Assembly: GCF_003172895.1 (NCBI RefSeq)
Contig: NZ_QGKL01000041.1
Coordinates: 124,001 to 188,000, forward strand
Reading direction: 5' to 3'
DNA from: Leucothrix arctica
GTDB taxonomy: Bacteria > Pseudomonadota > Gammaproteobacteria > Thiotrichales > Thiotrichaceae
DNA length: 64,000 nucleotides
Shown here piece after piece: positions 44,613 to 64,000 of the stretch. How positions within the stretch are numbered: the stretch's first letter is position 1; each line of letters begins with the position of its first letter. Below the pieces are notes generated by a model. That model saw nothing but the letters and a program-made list of their open reading frames with translations, did not search any database and was not told the DNA's origin. Made by a program: the position numbers and the translations under genes.

Positions 44613-45785
44613 TTACTCAGCCATCTCAGTCAGCACTTCTGACAACACAGCCATCAAATGGTCAATTTCACTATTACTCAAGTTCAGCGCAGGCATTAAA
44701 CGAATCGCGTGAGCTTGTGGCGCATTGATCAAAACCTTCTTTTCCATGCACTTTGCCGCAATCGTTGCAGCATCTAAGTCGCCTGTATCTAACGCTAACA
44801 GCAAACCTTTACCACGCACATTCCCCATACCGAACTGCTCAGACAAGTTCATTAGGTGCATAGTGATGTACTCACTACGTGCTTGAACCGTTGGTAAAAA
44901 GCTAGGCTCAGTCACAGCTTCTAATACGGCTATCGAAACAGCCGTCATTAGTGGATTACCGTTGTATGTTCCGCCCTGCTCGCCCGGTTCAAACACACAA
45001 ACTTCTTTCTTAGCCAATAGTGCAGAGATAGGAACACCGCCACCCAAACCTTTACCCAAGGTCATCATGTCTGGCTCGATACCGTAACCTTCATAGGCAA
45101 ACAACGTACCTGTACGGCCAATACCTGTCTGTACTTCGTCAACAATCAGAAGCAGATTATGCTCATCAGCCAAGGCACGTAGGCCTTTCATAAACTCAGG
45201 ATCAGCCGGAATCACGCCTGCTTCACCTTGAATGGGCTCTAGCATAATCGCAACAGTCTGCTCATCAATAGCGCGCTCTGTCGCGTCTAAGTCATTGAAT
45301 GCAACCTTAGTGAAACCGGGCGTCTTAGGCTCAAACATTGGAGCAAAGGCCGCTTTACCGCTTGCCGACATCGTCGTTAATGTACGACCGTGAAACGCGC
45401 CATCAAATGTGATGAACTTATACGCGCCATCTTTATGAACCTTGCCCCACTTACGTGCTAGCTTGATCGCGCCTTCGTTAGCTTCAGCGCCAGTATTAGC
45501 AAAAAACACCTGATCAAATACTGAGTTTTTAGTCAGTAAGTCAGCGCACTCAACCATTGGGCCGTTGTAAAAAGCAGGGCTAGCGTTAACCAGTCGAACG
45601 GCTTGTGAAGTTAGTGCTTCTGTAATCTGTGGTGCACAATGACCCAGCGTATTAACTGCCCAACCTTGAACACAATCTAGGTACTTATTCCCTTCAGAAT
45701 CAAACAACCAGCTACCTTCCCCTCGCTCAAACACTGTGTCAGGACGTGGTGTAATTTGCATAATCGAGTCGAATTGCTTACTCAT
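44613..45785 (-). CDS. argD: Acetylornithine aminotransferase (ArgD family)
   Basis: A 390-residue class III PLP aminotransferase. Motifs: NTGAEANEGAIKLARK, AFHGRTLTTMSASGK, EPIQGEAGVIPA, LIVDEVQTGIGRTG, the PLP lysine in TLGKGLGGGVPISALL, and GGTYNGNPLMTAVS. It belongs to the acetylornithine/succinyldiaminopimelate group acting in arginine (and lysine) synthesis. The arginine assignment is supported by the leader peptide with four Arg codons directly upstream. GAGAGA precedes the ATG. Monocistronic. Confidence 0.85.
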   Translation of the reverse strand: MSKQFDSIMQITPRPDTVFERGEGSWLFDSEGNKYLDCVQGWAVNTLGHCAPQITEALTSQAVRLVNASPAFYNGPMVECADLLTKNSVFDQVFFANTGAEANEGAIKLARKWGKVHKDGAYKFITFDGAFHGRTLTTMSASGKAAFAPMFEPKTPGFTKVAFNDLDATERAIDEQTVAIMLEPIQGEAGVIPADPEFMKGLRALADEHNLLLIVDEVQTGIGRTGTLFAYEGYGIEPDMMTLGKGLGGGVPISALLAKKEVCVFEPGEQGGTYNGNPLMTAVSIAVLEAVTEPSFLPTVQARSEYITMHLMNLSEQFGMGNVRGKGLLLALDTGDLDAATIAAKCMEKKVLINAPQAHAIRLMPALNLSNSEIDHLMAVLSEVLTEMAE

Positions 45786-45840: not shown

Positions 45841-45872
45841 AAAAAGCCACAGTGAATAGGCTGTGGCTTTTT
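45841..45872 (-). terminator. Attenuator terminator of argD
   Basis: AAAAAGCCACAG and CTGTGGCTTTTT make a perfect 12-bp stem with an 8-base loop, ending in T5 on the minus strand. Because it lies between the leader ORF and argD it would stop transcription before the gene unless the competing pairing forms. The 5' arm (45869-45860) can instead pair with GCTGTGCTT of the leader (45936-45928): 9 pairs with one bulged base. Confidence 0.8.
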
Positions 45873-45904
45873 AAATTTCGTTGCTCTTTCGAGCGTAAAC
45901 ACCG

Positions 45905-46000
45905 CTAGAAGATTCGCAATTCCATAGAAGCACAGCTAGGTATTCTACGTCGTCGTAGACCTGTGAACGTGTTCTGTGTGGGCGAATAAGGTGTGTGCAT
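45905..46000 (-). CDS. Arginine-rich leader peptide of argD
   Basis: A 31-codon ORF from ATG at 46000 to TAG. Codons 16-19 are CGA CGA CGT AGA, four arginines in a row (TGLRRRRIP), with another Arg at codon 29. The Arg codons sit in a hairpin (TCTACG/CGTAGA, loop ACGA on the coding strand). Codons 22-25 supply the antiterminator segment. No Shine-Dalgarno is visible, and the promoter would place transcription start at the ATG itself, so the peptide may be translated from a leaderless message. This is the classic layout for attenuation by charged tRNA-Arg; inference from sequence only. Confidence 0.7.
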   Translation of the reverse strand: MHTPYSPTQNTFTGLRRRRIPSCASMELRIF

Positions 46001-46006
46001 GGGCTG

Positions 46007-46036
46007 ATTATGCCGTTGTTTTGCGAGATTGGTCAA
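46007..46036 (-). promoter_or_regulatory. Sigma-70-like promoter of the argD leader
   Basis: On the minus strand TTGACC (46036-46031) and CATAAT (46012-46007), each one base from consensus, are 18 bp apart. The expected start is about 46000, at the first base of the leader ATG. Confidence 0.7.
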
Positions 46037-46122: not shown

Positions 46123-47409
46123 TTAGCTTTCATCCTTACTTCTAATAAGATATTCATAGTAGAAAAGGCATTTAATTAAATGATGTAAGTTATGCACCTC
46201 ACGAAATAGTACTAGTATCATCCTCATAAAATCCAAAAAATATATCACTTGCCCTTCTGTTGGCTCAATACTTCCGCCTTTAGGAAAGTAGGTTATCTCT
46301 TGTGTAATATCGTTGTACTCAACATTATTGTGGGCGATTGCGTTTCTAACGCTAGCATCAACCACATCTTTTTCTAGAGGGTACCAACAGTCATCTAAAT
46401 ATTTAAACTTATCAGAAAGGGGTTTTGACGCGAATTTATCAAGAGAGCTTAACGCTTTACCACTCATTGGTAAAAAAGACTCACTATCACCTCTATGTAT
46501 TATATTATTAATACCCGCAACTAATATGAGCTGTCTGGCAAAGACCTCAGCTATATCCTTGTACAAATCTTTATACATCTGGAAGTCTTTAGTTGAAACT
46601 CGTGCAGCCATTTGTGCCTTCTCATAGTTATTAACCAAATCCAGAAACAAAGCAGGCCTCATCGGCATTTCAGCGTTATAAATTTCTGGGTATAACTTCA
46701 AACAATCTTTTTGTATCCTATTTAGAAAATTGCTCGAAATTATACTCTCCATAAATTTATTTAAGGGTTCAGGAGGCAACCTACTTGTTAAGTCCACGAT
46801 TTTTTCAATAACAACATTTACATCTGTAACCCGAAGAAAGGGACGAAATACATGGCTAACGAAAAGATACAGACTAGCATTTATATCTTGAGGCTTTAAA
46901 GATGTGCCCTGATCTAGCTCAAGAAAATCTCCAACTCGCTTTTTGAATAACTGTTTGTTTTTCGCGCTATATAGTTTAATTATCAACTTAATTTCAGAAG
47001 ACTTATCGTGAAAATAATTCAGCTGATCAAGTCTGAAATTTATAAAAATCATTTTTTCTTCAAAGCTACCCATATCTGTTTTTGAGCTAGCACCTAACTC
47101 TTTGATTGCCATCATGAATGGTGTCATCCCCATAGCATACTTTCCAAACCGTACGGGAAAATCTAAATGAAGATCAACAAATGGGTTATCACCTTTAAAA
47201 AGTCCAACAGGCTGGTTTTCGGATGGCTTACATCTCTTAAAATCAAACTTACTTCTGGGGGCAGAGGTTATATCAAGTGTTATTTCCATCAGGGAACCAC
47301 AATGGGGGCATGAAAAACTTAGGGGCTGAATTTTTCGATTTGAATAGCCAATCCTACAATCAGTATCTTGCTCACATACATCGCAGGTAAACGTTAAATT
47401 TGTATTCAT
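46123..47409 (-). CDS. Hypothetical protein: N-terminal zinc ribbon, C-terminal HEPN-like motif
   Basis: A 428-residue protein I cannot assign. Residues 9-37 hold two CxxC pairs (CDVC and CPHC), a zinc ribbon. The rest is helical. R355-NAIA-H360 matches the Rx4-6H motif of HEPN ribonucleases and abortive-infection proteins, inside a long helical C-terminal segment. The gene is more AT-rich than its neighbours, which suggests acquisition. A weak AGG precedes the ATG. It stands alone between argD and a phnA gene. Confidence 0.65.
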   Translation of the reverse strand: MNTNLTFTCDVCEQDTDCRIGYSNRKIQPLSFSCPHCGSLMEITLDITSAPRSKFDFKRCKPSENQPVGLFKGDNPFVDLHLDFPVRFGKYAMGMTPFMMAIKELGASSKTDMGSFEEKMIFINFRLDQLNYFHDKSSEIKLIIKLYSAKNKQLFKKRVGDFLELDQGTSLKPQDINASLYLFVSHVFRPFLRVTDVNVVIEKIVDLTSRLPPEPLNKFMESIISSNFLNRIQKDCLKLYPEIYNAEMPMRPALFLDLVNNYEKAQMAARVSTKDFQMYKDLYKDIAEVFARQLILVAGINNIIHRGDSESFLPMSGKALSSLDKFASKPLSDKFKYLDDCWYPLEKDVVDASVRNAIAHNNVEYNDITQEITYFPKGGSIEPTEGQVIYFLDFMRMILVLFREVHNLHHLIKCLFYYEYLIRSKDES

Positions 47410-48192: not shown

Positions 48193-49008
48193 TTAAGGTA
48201 GCATTTCAACTTTTACATTTTTGAAATCGATACCGTTGTCTGGCGTATTCTTCTTTTTAGAAGAACCAAACGTCTTACTGTTAACGTGGAACGCTAACAT
48301 ACCGATATTTGTAATTTTCGCACCAGCATCTAGCTTACTAAACTGACTCAACACGCGGCCACCTTGGCTTAATGAACCAGACACTTGAACACCACCAGCT
48401 GCTTGCTGGATAGTCATAGTACCTGTGTAAGTCTGACCAGGAGCGAAGTTATATGGGTTACCGCCAGCTTTTAAGTCCGTGTAACCTTTTGTAGTACCTA
48501 ACAAACGACCCGTAGCAGCGTTCTTGTGCTTACGAATGTTGATGTTAGATTTTTGTGGCATTCCTACATCGAAGTCAATCATGTAACCCGGCAAGCCGTT
48601 ATAGTTAGCATTTGGCTTCTTAGAAGATGCTGATTGGTCACTATCTAGTGCTGCACGACCTGCTTTGTTATACATACCAATACGGAATGCAGAGTCACGC
48701 TTAGTTCCAATTGTTCTTGGCGTTACAAAGGTAAACGTCGCTTTAATCGACTTACCCGGAGATAGTGCTTGAGGTGCAAACGTTGTACGAAGACCACGAC
48801 CTGAACCACCAGATACTAGACCTAAAGAACCTTTACTGATTTCAAGTGCTGCACTATTCGTTGTCTGCCACCAGTTTGAATCTTGTGCGTCAGCACTGTT
48901 CGTACGGTCGCCATCTGTAAAACTGTCATTTAGAACAACAGTTCCTGCCATTGCTGTGCTACATAGAAGGCCAGCCACTGCCAATGATGTAAGTGTTAAG
49001 ATTTTCAT
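48193..49008 (-). CDS. Secreted stand-alone homologue of the alginate lyase C-terminal module
   Basis: I start at ATG 49008, which has GGAGGAG upstream and opens a clean signal peptide (LTLTSLAVAGLLCSTAMA). The mature protein of about 250 residues is closely similar, end to end, to residues 510-759 of the lyase encoded next door. Shared blocks include GLVSGGSGRG, YNGLPGYMIDFDV, NINIRKHK, GRLLGTTKGYT and GMLAFHVNSKTFGSSKKK. A beta-sandwich carbohydrate-binding or lyase-like fold is inferred. It lies 63 bp after the lyase gene and is probably cotranscribed. Confidence 0.8.
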   Translation of the reverse strand: MKILTLTSLAVAGLLCSTAMAGTVVLNDSFTDGDRTNSADAQDSNWWQTTNSAALEISKGSLGLVSGGSGRGLRTTFAPQALSPGKSIKATFTFVTPRTIGTKRDSAFRIGMYNKAGRAALDSDQSASSKKPNANYNGLPGYMIDFDVGMPQKSNINIRKHKNAATGRLLGTTKGYTDLKAGGNPYNFAPGQTYTGTMTIQQAAGGVQVSGSLSQGGRVLSQFSKLDAGAKITNIGMLAFHVNSKTFGSSKKKNTPDNGIDFKNVKVEMLP

Positions 49009-49071
49009 AAAACTCCTCCAATTTGAGCTTTTATTTTTAATGCCTAGACCCGAAGGCCTAGGCACTTATTA

Positions 49072-51351
49072 TTAAGGTAAGATTTCTACCTTAAGGTTTT
49101 TAATGTCGATACCATTGTCAGGCGTATCTTTCTTCTTAGAAGACCCGAAAGTCTTACTATTTACGTGGAATGCCAACATACCAAAGTTATTTGCATCACC
49201 TTTTTCATCTGTCTTGCTGAACTCGCTAAGTACAGTACCGTCTTGGCTTAGTGAACCAGTAACTTTAATACCTGCAGCTAACTTCTGAACAGCGATTGAA
49301 CCTGTGTAAGTCTCACCAGGAACAAACTGATATCCATTACCGCCAGCACCAAGTTCTGTGTAGCCCTTAGTCGTACCTAGCAAACGGCCAGTAGTCGCAT
49401 CTTTGTGCTTACGAATATTGATGTTTGCTTTAGTTGGATCTTTAAGATTAACGTCAAAGTCAATCATGTAACCCGGCAAGCCGTTGTAGTTTAGGTTTGG
49501 CTTCTTTGAAGAGGCAGATAGATCACCTTCTAAATCAGCACGACCTAACTTGTCATATATACCAACACGAAGCGCTGAGTCACGGTTAGTACCCATTGTC
49601 TCAGGCGTAGTAAACGTAAAGTCCGCTTTGATCGTTTGGCCTTCAGCCAAAGTCTGTGGGTCAAACGTTGCACGAATACCACGTCCAGAACCGCCAGATA
49701 CTAAACCAACATGACCTTTAGCAACTTCGATAGCGCCACTAGTTGTCGTTGCCCACCATGCAGTATCCAATGCATCTGCACCGTTATCACGGCCACCGTC
49801 AGCAAAACTATCATCAACGATTACACCCGCTACTGCAGCTTTTGCAGGAACAGCCGCTGCTTTAGCAGACTTCTCTGCTACTGCTTTCATATCAGCAGTC
49901 GCTTCTGGCGCTGGAGAGTGAGTTGCTTCTAATTTAAAGAAAGTAACCTTATCAAAGTCAGTCTCTGGCGTTGGGCTTGAGTTGTTTCCAGAGTAAGCAC
50001 CTGCTTTAAAAAACATGAACTCATCTTCAACATTGAAACCACTGTCACGCATGTCGAAAGGATCAGCGACTACTTCAGTACCATCGTCACGAATAATCTT
50101 TAGGTGCAACATTGGGATGATGACATCACCTTCCTGCTTACCTTTAACTTCGATCTCATAGCTGAATACTTCATCCAGTGCGATACCATCGGCAGGGTTT
50201 GCTATTTTATTCGCGCGCTTACCAATCACATCTACCCAAGTCTCTTTACCTACTTCTGGGTCATGAGCGAAGTAAATCGAACCAAACTTGTTTGTTGGTA
50301 GCTTGCGGTAGTAAAGACGAATCGGCTCGTCATTTTTCGCATGGATCTGACCAATAACAACACGACCTACTTGGTAAGCTTTACCTAGACGTGTTACTTG
50401 GTTAACAGACATTGTTGCTGTCATCTTTCCATCAACACCTGCAGAAGCTGCTTGTGCAGACTTAGGTGCAGAAGAGAATACCCAGTTGTTCTTGTTTGGG
50501 TAACCGCCTTCAATACGCGTTTCGATGTTGTAGTCACCACGACGTAACATGCCGCGTAACTCTGAACGAGTGTAGCTAGTATTTTTTGACGTTTTAGCAC
50601 CTGCCGCTGAAACATGGAATACCATTCCACCTGTTGCAGGGTCTGTATAGAAATACTTAGGATGAGTCCAACCTGCGGCTAGCTCATTTTCAAACACGTT
50701 GTCAGATTTGCCATCACCATCTTCATCAGTAGGTACTGAGAGGTACCAACTTTGCAAATCAAAGTTTTCCCCTGGTGGCTTATCTAGGTGGAGACCAAAC
50801 ATACCTGCGCCTTTACGCTCAGCGACAGCAATTTCTTTTGGCTTTTCAACAGCAACACCACAACCTGTAGCAACGACCTCAGTCATGCTGTTCCAGTTAT
50901 TACTTTCGTTACCGTTACCAATAAACTTGATGTACTGTGCTTTCACAGCGTCAAATTCATAAGTCTCTAACTCTAGCGTTGTACCACTAGATGTACGGTC
51001 AGCAACAATTGTTTGGAAAGTTTTACCGTCTAAGGATGCTTCGATTTTGAAGTTAGACTTACGGCTATCACCTTTGTACCAAGCTGCACTAAAAGATTTT
51101 AGTGTTTGTTGAGCACCTAGGTCGAATAGGATCTCTTTTGGTGAACCTTGTGATTCATTTGACCAACGAGAGTCTGGATCAGTACTACCGTCAAGCAGGC
51201 TAGCTGGGCTATGAGATACATCGTCAAACATACCATCGTCCGTTGCGGAAATGATAGTAAGTGGCCCACTACCATCGCAGGCAGTGTTTGCAGAAACGGA
51301 TCCTGCACATAAAAGTAATGCAGAAATAGCCGTAGCGCTAAAATGATTCAT
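49072..51351 (-). CDS. Secreted PL7 alginate lyase with CBM32-like and novel C-terminal modules
   Basis: A 759-residue extracellular enzyme. Signal peptide (1-21); F5/8-type (CBM32-like) module at about 25-164; PL7 catalytic domain at about 195-476; Ala-rich linker (about 478-508); C-terminal module 510-759. PL7 motifs are present: RSEL (262-265), QIH (335-337) and FFKAGAY (447-453). QIH is typical of enzymes active on guluronate-containing blocks. The enzyme should cut alginate by beta-elimination outside the cell. The C-terminal module has a stand-alone copy downstream. No uptake or uronate catabolism genes are in the window. Confidence 0.9.
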   Translation of the reverse strand: MNHFSATAISALLLCAGSVSANTACDGSGPLTIISATDDGMFDDVSHSPASLLDGSTDPDSRWSNESQGSPKEILFDLGAQQTLKSFSAAWYKGDSRKSNFKIEASLDGKTFQTIVADRTSSGTTLELETYEFDAVKAQYIKFIGNGNESNNWNSMTEVVATGCGVAVEKPKEIAVAERKGAGMFGLHLDKPPGENFDLQSWYLSVPTDEDGDGKSDNVFENELAAGWTHPKYFYTDPATGGMVFHVSAAGAKTSKNTSYTRSELRGMLRRGDYNIETRIEGGYPNKNNWVFSSAPKSAQAASAGVDGKMTATMSVNQVTRLGKAYQVGRVVIGQIHAKNDEPIRLYYRKLPTNKFGSIYFAHDPEVGKETWVDVIGKRANKIANPADGIALDEVFSYEIEVKGKQEGDVIIPMLHLKIIRDDGTEVVADPFDMRDSGFNVEDEFMFFKAGAYSGNNSSPTPETDFDKVTFFKLEATHSPAPEATADMKAVAEKSAKAAAVPAKAAVAGVIVDDSFADGGRDNGADALDTAWWATTTSGAIEVAKGHVGLVSGGSGRGIRATFDPQTLAEGQTIKADFTFTTPETMGTNRDSALRVGIYDKLGRADLEGDLSASSKKPNLNYNGLPGYMIDFDVNLKDPTKANINIRKHKDATTGRLLGTTKGYTELGAGGNGYQFVPGETYTGSIAVQKLAAGIKVTGSLSQDGTVLSEFSKTDEKGDANNFGMLAFHVNSKTFGSSKKKDTPDNGIDIKNLKVEILP

Positions 51352-63400: not shown

Positions 63401-63410
63401 CCTATTAAAT

Positions 63411-63526
63411 CTTGGCAATGACCTACTTTCACATGGGGAAACCCCACACTATCATCGGCGATGACACTTTTCACTGCTGAGTTCGAGATGGGATCAGGTG
63501 GTTCAATGTCTCTATGGTTACCAAGA
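63411..63526 (-). rRNA. rrf: 5S ribosomal RNA
   Basis: About 115 bases. The minus-strand sequence begins CTTGGTAACC and ends GGTCATTGCCAAG, with closing 5'/3' stem CTTGG/CCAAG. The internal GAACCACCTGATCCCATCTC and GAACTCAGCAGTGAAA are diagnostic of 5S. Ends are set by the closing stem and may be off by 1-3 bases. Confidence 0.95.
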
Positions 63527-63665
63527 AAACCGGTGTGTGATACCTGTTGTCAATACGTTAACCTCAGTCAACGGCCCACAACAGGCTCACGAATAAGTAA
63601 TAATCTAGTAGCAGTGACCCACTATTGTCTGTTTGTCACACTTTCGCTCAACAAACCATTCAAGG

Positions 63666-64000
<335 letters not shown>

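Follow-up and report, generated by a model that had tools for sequence, protein, structure and literature searches.

A candidate leaderless, arginyl-tRNA-sensing transcription attenuator upstream of argD in Leucothrix arctica and related proteobacteria

Introduction

The argD gene of Leucothrix arctica is preceded by a leader region that we interpret as a ribosome-mediated transcription attenuator, which senses the supply of arginyl-tRNA and controls argD. We put the probability of this reading at roughly 0.9; the response to arginine is itself inferred, as there are no arginine-response data. The leader lies in a 64,000-nucleotide stretch of L. arctica DNA, referred to here as the window, whose own numbering is used throughout, and the attenuator had been suggested in a preliminary description of that DNA made without database searches. 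A full-text literature search, which did not cover subscription papers, found no description of an attenuator with arginine codons for argD or any other bacterial gene of arginine synthesis. As far as the literature was searched, arginine is thus a new specificity of the known trp/his-type attenuation, and it would extend the range of amino acids to which biosynthetic attenuators respond.

We also lean, with clearly less assurance, towards a wider proposal, namely that a leaderless arginyl-tRNA-sensing attenuator of argD, of a specificity not described for a biosynthetic attenuator in the literature searched, runs arginine synthesis in many beta- and gammaproteobacteria without ArgR, and that its terminated RNA, already seen and filed as the small RNA (sRNA) family RF02884, may act in trans like rnTrpL. 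The attenuator would explain, in a way open to testing, how bacteria in which ArgR was not found (0 of 68 genomes) can adjust arginine synthesis to arginine.

Materials and methods

Loci encoding argD of the NCBIfam NF002985 type were collected from several sets of genomes. Of 63 genomes searched in the window's family, 11 carried this argD type at E 1e-120, giving 12 loci; a class sample of 383 genomes gave 14 loci at E 1e-125, the window being also in the family set. In the order of genome G518 the argD type was found in 46 of 299 genomes at E 1e-150, and 47 of 48 places were read, the unread one being a second, partial argD match of G747. We infer that this order is Burkholderiales, because its loci match a Burkholderia RNA family. 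No further argD was found at the thresholds used in the orders of G273 and G093 (1/16 and 1/1 genomes, respectively).

Upstream regions were divided by eye into those with and those without a leader, on the basis of ORF, promoter and terminator. Arg pairs, promoter and terminator served jointly to recognise a leader, so the counts given below hold partly by construction, and related leaders are not independent of one another. One locus (L210) was excluded from the count, its RRR ORF being accompanied by neither a clear -10 nor a clear terminator, and one without an adjacent Arg pair (L224) was counted as a leader because it resembles L222 and L225.

For the pairing test, the part of each ORF behind the Arg core was set against terminator 5' arms, and own partners were compared with permuted partners. 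For folding, each leader RNA was taken from its ATG as far as the terminator loop and given a ribosome footprint of 15 nt on each side of the P-site; this footprint model is simple and ignores kinetics. Rfam near-misses at L186 and L168 were left out, as they fall outside the leaders of those loci. The papers cited by PMC number were available in part, and what is said of them is limited accordingly.

Results

Leader anatomy

The features of the locus, all on the minus strand, are given in Table 1. The preliminary description had named the promoter, the 31-codon ORF with its four Arg codons, the terminator, the pairing segments and the Arg-codon hairpin, and its coordinates and letters were found to be correct. 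The promoter is called as sigma-70-type, and its -10 hexamer ends 6 nt upstream of the leader ATG. In a mechanical ORF list the frame begins with TTG 46036, within the -35 box (43 aa); unlike that TTG, the ATG at 46000 agrees with the promoter as a start. Promoter and leader ORF intervene between the end of the upstream gene, at 46123, and the terminator, and we therefore rejected the terminator as that gene's own. Hairpins resembling the small one in the gap between leader ORF and terminator were seen by eye at L009, L039 and L040.

Table 1. Positions of the argD leader elements and of argD in the window
Feature	Position	Strand	Remarks
Predicted promoter, TTGACC / 18-nt spacer / CATAAT	46007..46036	(-)	-35 at 46036-46031, -10 at 46012-46007; like geometry in most of 33 homologous leaders
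Leader ORF, 31 codons, MHTPYSPTQNTFTGLRRRRIPSCASMELRIF	45905..46000	(-)	ATG 46000, at predicted +1; stop ends 45905; homologous ORFs found
Putative arginine sensor codons CGA CGA CGT AGA, codons 16-19	45944..45955	(-)	
Arg-codon hairpin, protector core (segment 1:2)	45945..45958	(-)	CTACG-ACGA-CGTAG (45958-45945); minimum-energy fold without ribosome
Putative antiterminator segment (segment 2), GCTGTGCTT	45928..45936	(-)	Pairing tests and fold
Small hairpin GCTC-GAAA-GAGC, gap between leader ORF and terminator	45883..45894	(-)	Covariation not counted
Intrinsic terminator, perfect 12-bp stem, 8-nt loop, T5	45841..45872	(-)	5' arm (segment 3) 45872-45861
argD, acetylornithine transaminase, NCBIfam NF002985 (PRK03715) type	44613..45785	(-)	603 bits, cut-off 568

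Taken singly, promoter-like and terminator-like sites are neither rarer nor commoner than chance in the window. A scan for the combination of a -10-like hexamer, an ATG, a run of at least three of any one amino acid and a terminator matched once in the window, at the argD leader ORF, and had no match in 40 dinucleotide shuffles of the window, by which a chance origin of the whole combination was ruled out. The window's leader has no Rfam match, Trp_leader and Leu_leader included, and a known Rfam riboswitch or leader in this stretch was rejected on that ground; at 16 related loci there was a single weak Leu_leader match (L204, 26.4 bits against a gathering score of 50, E 0.5). Elsewhere in the window, a 5S rRNA gene and the 3'-terminal part of a 23S rRNA gene lie at 63410-64000 on the minus strand, and 48193-51351 contains two adjoining genes with C-terminal parts that look similar, the larger of which may be alginate-lyase-like.

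The mechanism that we propose for this layout is as follows. Transcription would start at or next to the leader ATG, and the peptide would be translated from a leaderless RNA. With ample charged tRNA-Arg the ribosome would pass the Arg codons and cover segment 2, which would leave the terminator 5' arm free to join its 3' arm, and RNA polymerase would halt before argD. When arginine is scarce the ribosome would stall on the Arg run, and the exposed segment 2 would pair with the terminator 5' arm and let the polymerase continue into argD; GCTGTGCTT (45936-45928) and AAGCCACAGC (45869-45860) can form 9 pairs around a single bulged C. Without translation, the 1:2 structure (Arg codons and segment 2) and the terminator would both form, so that argD would be off by default. 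The stalling, and its dependence on arginine, are inferences.

Recurrence upstream of argD

We observed the attenuator layout in 33 of the 70 argD upstream regions read, double counts removed, and these leaders span 13 families in the tool's numbering (f1, f32, f78, f108, f128, f168, f173, f179, f181, f185, f189, f194 and f197). It is present at 6 of the 12 loci of the window's family (the window, L009, L034, L039, L040 and L041) and absent from the others (L010, L035-L038 and L042); L010 belongs to the same genus as the window and its argD is 76% identical, yet it has no leader. The class sample has the leader at 6 of 14 loci (the window, L044, L049, L168, L176 and L179) and the order of G518 at 23 of the 47 read, L168 being also in the class sample. 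Genome G054 carries two argD copies of the NF002985 type, one with the attenuator (L034) and one without (L042), the latter behind a gene labelled by eye as permease-like. Downstream of argD the genes differ among the 15 loci examined, and argD itself is therefore the likely target.

ORF and terminator occur together. In the division made by eye, a terminator was found at 31 of 33 loci with the leader and at 1 of 37 without it. Orthologues that keep the terminator and have no Arg-rich ORF had been put forward beforehand as what would refute an attenuator; such loci were sought, and the only terminator-like stem among the 37 is one of 7 bp at L198. Under a mechanical rule (an RRR ORF with a -10-like hexamer) the terminator is present at 23 of 24 loci, and at 9 of 46 otherwise; for an RRR ORF with the promoter rule dropped, this becomes 24 of 28 against 8 of 42. 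When the promoter rule was kept and a run of any amino acid was allowed, the scan matched at 26 of 70 loci and always in the argD leader. The run was one of Arg 22 times; in the other 4 matches it was of Ala alone, the leader around it being rich in Arg. The RRR ORFs of L048 and L206 are without a terminator and were taken as chance.

The terminator pattern is matched by at least 118 stretches in the genome contigs. Two of the 118 matches listed have an RRR leader, one in Leucothrix pacifica (L057) and one in a Thiotrichaceae MAG (L113), and the other matches listed were rejected as attenuators, being other uses of a common terminator. Among the matches listed, the CTGTGGC terminator pattern also stands upstream of transporter genes, presumably EamA-like (L054, L096, L125 and L093); L054 and L096 have in common a short ORF with a VRRW motif, where a conserved leader is possible.

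The Arg run

In an alignment of 16 leader peptides, nothing but the Arg run is conserved. This run is RRRR in the window, RRR or longer in 25 of 33 leaders and RR or longer in 31, that is, in all but L224 and L044, the latter with R-x-R repeats instead of an adjacent pair. Leaders L222, L224 and L225, which belong to one family, have RARAWAGRGAS-type sequences in which Arg and Ala alternate and the Arg run is weaker.

The Arg codons could be read differently, as part of an arrest peptide by which a small molecule, either arginine or ornithine, would be sensed on the ribosome, instead of as codons that sense charged tRNA. ORF34, or SpeFL, is an ornithine-sensing arrest peptide. Its tandem Arg codons matter for Salmonella speF (PMC6386406), which favours such a reading of the argD leader. 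The 16 aligned leaders, however, hold no conserved motif outside the Arg run, and in folding it is the placement of a ribosome over the Arg codons that frees the antiterminator, so we give arrest by the peptide very little credence, less even than an sRNA of independent function (see below).

Antiterminator and terminator change together

Attenuation by codons requires that segment 2 compete with the terminator, and the comparison of leaders is in line with a putative antiterminator that has been kept through matched changes. Over the 33 leaders own pairs have a mean of -14.5 kcal/mol and others -12.0 kcal/mol (z -6.4), and none of 100,000 permutations reached the observed sum; for 19 representatives the means are -15.1 and -12.3 kcal/mol, again with 0/100,000 permutations. 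The six members of the window's family alone give a permutation p of 0.014. Among these six the closing pair of the antiterminator has changed on both sides, being G-C in the window and L009, C-G in L034, L039 and L040, and A-U in L041; 97% of cells pair, against 25-44% in slid versions, and the covariation score was matched by 3 of 500 shuffles. Only one of the six pairs varies on both sides, a count reached in 443 of 500 shuffles, and one antiterminator pair is broken in L039. At L049 a divergent terminator arm, GGCCGCAACACC, is accompanied by a matching GGTTGCG in the ORF, and its own arm is the best of the 33. Duplexes are weak in L185 (-4.6 kcal/mol) and L183 (-7.6 kcal/mol).

An alignment of upstream regions had been recommended as a check at the outset; the Arg run is conserved in the 16 leader peptides aligned, and antiterminator and terminator arm change together between leaders. 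These joint changes and the association of ORF with terminator support the attenuator that had been suggested, its arginine effect remaining an inference.

Folding with a ribosome footprint

The folding model gives the expected geometry, in which a ribosome on the sensor codons would free the antiterminator and one further on would block it; 8 of 33 leaders lack a clear drop. On average, the terminator 5' arm was paired with upstream sequence with a probability of 0.84 when the ribosome sat on the first Arg codon, as against 0.49 for a ribosome at the stop codon and 0.43 in the absence of one, and upstream pairing was greater on Arg than at the stop in 30 of 33 leaders, the remaining three not favouring Arg over stop. 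In codon-shuffled ORFs the value on the Arg codon was 0.54, and none of 25 shuffled sets matched the real mean. For the window it was 0.86 at codon 16, about 0 from codon 18 for most of the remaining ORF and 0.43 at the stop, and without a ribosome the Arg codons fold onto the antiterminator. In the eight leaders without a clear drop, sequestration never falls below half of the Arg value along the ORF; L222 and L224 lack a clear drop behind the Arg codons.

The same calculations bear on whether the leader senses slow translation in general, independently of the arginine supply, responding for instance to slow leaderless initiation or to one scarce tRNA. In many leaders, the window's included, a ribosome upstream of the Arg run frees the antiterminator as well, and CGA is the commonest Arg codon in the leaders (62 of 186), both of which would suit such a sensor. 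CGC (61 of 186) and CGT (38 of 186) are nevertheless also used, and at 70 of 70 loci the downstream gene encodes acetylornithine transaminase, an enzyme of arginine synthesis, although this follows from how the loci were found. Of the explanations considered here this one seems to us the least probable, and we retain arginyl-tRNA as the predicted signal.

Promoter spacing and leaderless translation

The best -10-like hexamer (best of six spacings) ends 6-7 nt upstream of the ATG in 30 of 33 leaders, the distance being unusual in L176, L220 and L221, and TTGAC or TTTACA begins 35-39 nt upstream of the ATG in 28 of 33; L208 has no clear -35. From this spacing we place the transcription start at or next to the leader ATG, and hence infer a leaderless RNA and leaderless translation, for which there are no 5'-end data. 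The preliminary description had reached the same placement, and the ATG does fall at the predicted +1; it had also supposed that the leaderless form would be new, which cannot be maintained, as rnTrpL of S. meliloti begins at the trpL ATG (PMC7298713). A leaderless leader-peptide attenuator is thus not new as such and has a rhizobial precedent. The recurrence of the leaderless form across families raises the question of whether initiation on leaderless RNA is a second input.

A filed small RNA family over the same leader

RF02884 (BcKCsr7) lies over the leader at gathering score at L182, L183 and L185, and of 150 genomes in the family of G800, 91 have it at E 0.001, 63 of these over the gathering score. 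At the best 30 RF02884 loci, two of them L182 and L183, argD follows and an RRR leader is present in 30 of 30 (29 by script, the true ORF of L252 by reading; L255, missed by the argD signature, was also settled by reading). The window's leader did not match RF02884 at gathering score or at E 1 and is not a filed member; we consider that it works like the RF02884 leaders even so.

RF02884 is a family of Burkholderia. Bc_KC_sr7, which is also nc5U30 and RIT34, is placed by a 2024 review on chromosome 1 of B. cenocepacia J2315 (2,967,641-2,967,787; 147 nt, expressed), and the Bc_KC_sr RNAs were named by Ghosh et al. 2017, as cited there (PMC10987360). From the ATG to the end of the terminator stem we measured 147-148 nt in 11 of 28 RF02884 loci (range 133-150). 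The 147-nt RNA is compatible with a leaderless terminated leader RNA, the J2315 sequence not having been read. Short 5'UTRs were defined by Sass et al. 2017 as products of processing or attenuation, and argD is absent from the main text of that paper as far as available (PMC5688073). In the available part of the 2024 review we found no mention of an Arg ORF, argD or attenuation for the RF02884 RNA, and our reading would offer a function for an expressed Burkholderia RNA that is given none there (PMC10987360).

The filing could also be taken at face value, the locus then making a trans-acting sRNA, with an ORF that is there by accident or plays a secondary part. RF02884 is filed in Rfam among the sRNA families, the review describes Bc_KC_sr1 to sr7 as confirmed to be expressed (PMC10987360), and attenuator RNAs can act in trans too, as S. 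meliloti rnTrpL does (PMC7298713). Against this, the RNA stands directly before argD in the best 30 RF02884 loci, the Arg run is kept while the rest of the peptide diverges, and antiterminator and terminator change together. We therefore regard an sRNA with no attenuating function as highly improbable; a side role of the attenuator's leader RNA in trans is not excluded.

ArgR and the second argD

ArgR (TIGR01529, E 1e-10) was found in none of the 68 genomes with an NF002985-type argD, leader or not, and in 8 of 14 control genomes. According to a regulon study, many groups of gammaproteobacteria have kept ArgR, and it is missing from other classes (PMC5343134). The genome of the window has a second argD (TIGR00707, 490 bits; L002, G000:C33:240003-244160, at 1498-2673), directly before a gene named by eye as ornithine carbamoyltransferase-like, or argF-like. 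No Arg leader was found upstream of this second argD, so in this genome the attenuator serves an extra copy, and what is gained by regulating the attenuated copy is unclear.

Discussion

Earlier comparative work on proteobacterial attenuators is reportedly that of Vitreschak et al. 2004. The argD leader resembles the trp, his, leu and thr attenuators (Rfam Trp_leader RF00513, Leu_leader RF00512) in having a run of codons for the end product, competition between antiterminator and terminator, and a biosynthetic gene downstream; unlike them, it would sense arginine, and its ATG is predicted to lie at or near the transcript start. With RF02884 BcKCsr7 it shares a place as leader of the same argD type, the differences being that BcKCsr7 is filed in Rfam as an sRNA and that the window's leader goes unmatched by it at E 1.

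Among individual systems, S. meliloti trpL/rnTrpL has the leaderless leader peptide and a terminated RNA that is also an sRNA, but it concerns tryptophan in an alphaproteobacterium, and a role in trans has been reported there (PMC7298713). Salmonella orf34-speF is alike in that two tandem Arg codons of a leader ORF sense arginine, and unlike in that its effects depend on Rho termination, on decay of the mRNA and on how accessible the ribosome site of speF is, and in that speF encodes ornithine decarboxylase and is not a gene of arginine synthesis (PMC6386406). For the Pseudomonas carAB leader, attenuation with a leader peptide has likewise been proposed, at a gene common to arginine and pyrimidine synthesis; there, however, attenuation is ascribed to pyrimidines, and no Arg run is described in the available part of the account (PMC4997734). 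The cysS leaders of Rhodobacterales (uORFC-8-2) were, like the argD leader, predicted by comparison to be ribosome-mediated attenuators with tandem codons and a terminator, and differ from it in that Cys codons stand before an aminoacyl-tRNA synthetase gene (PMC8632094).
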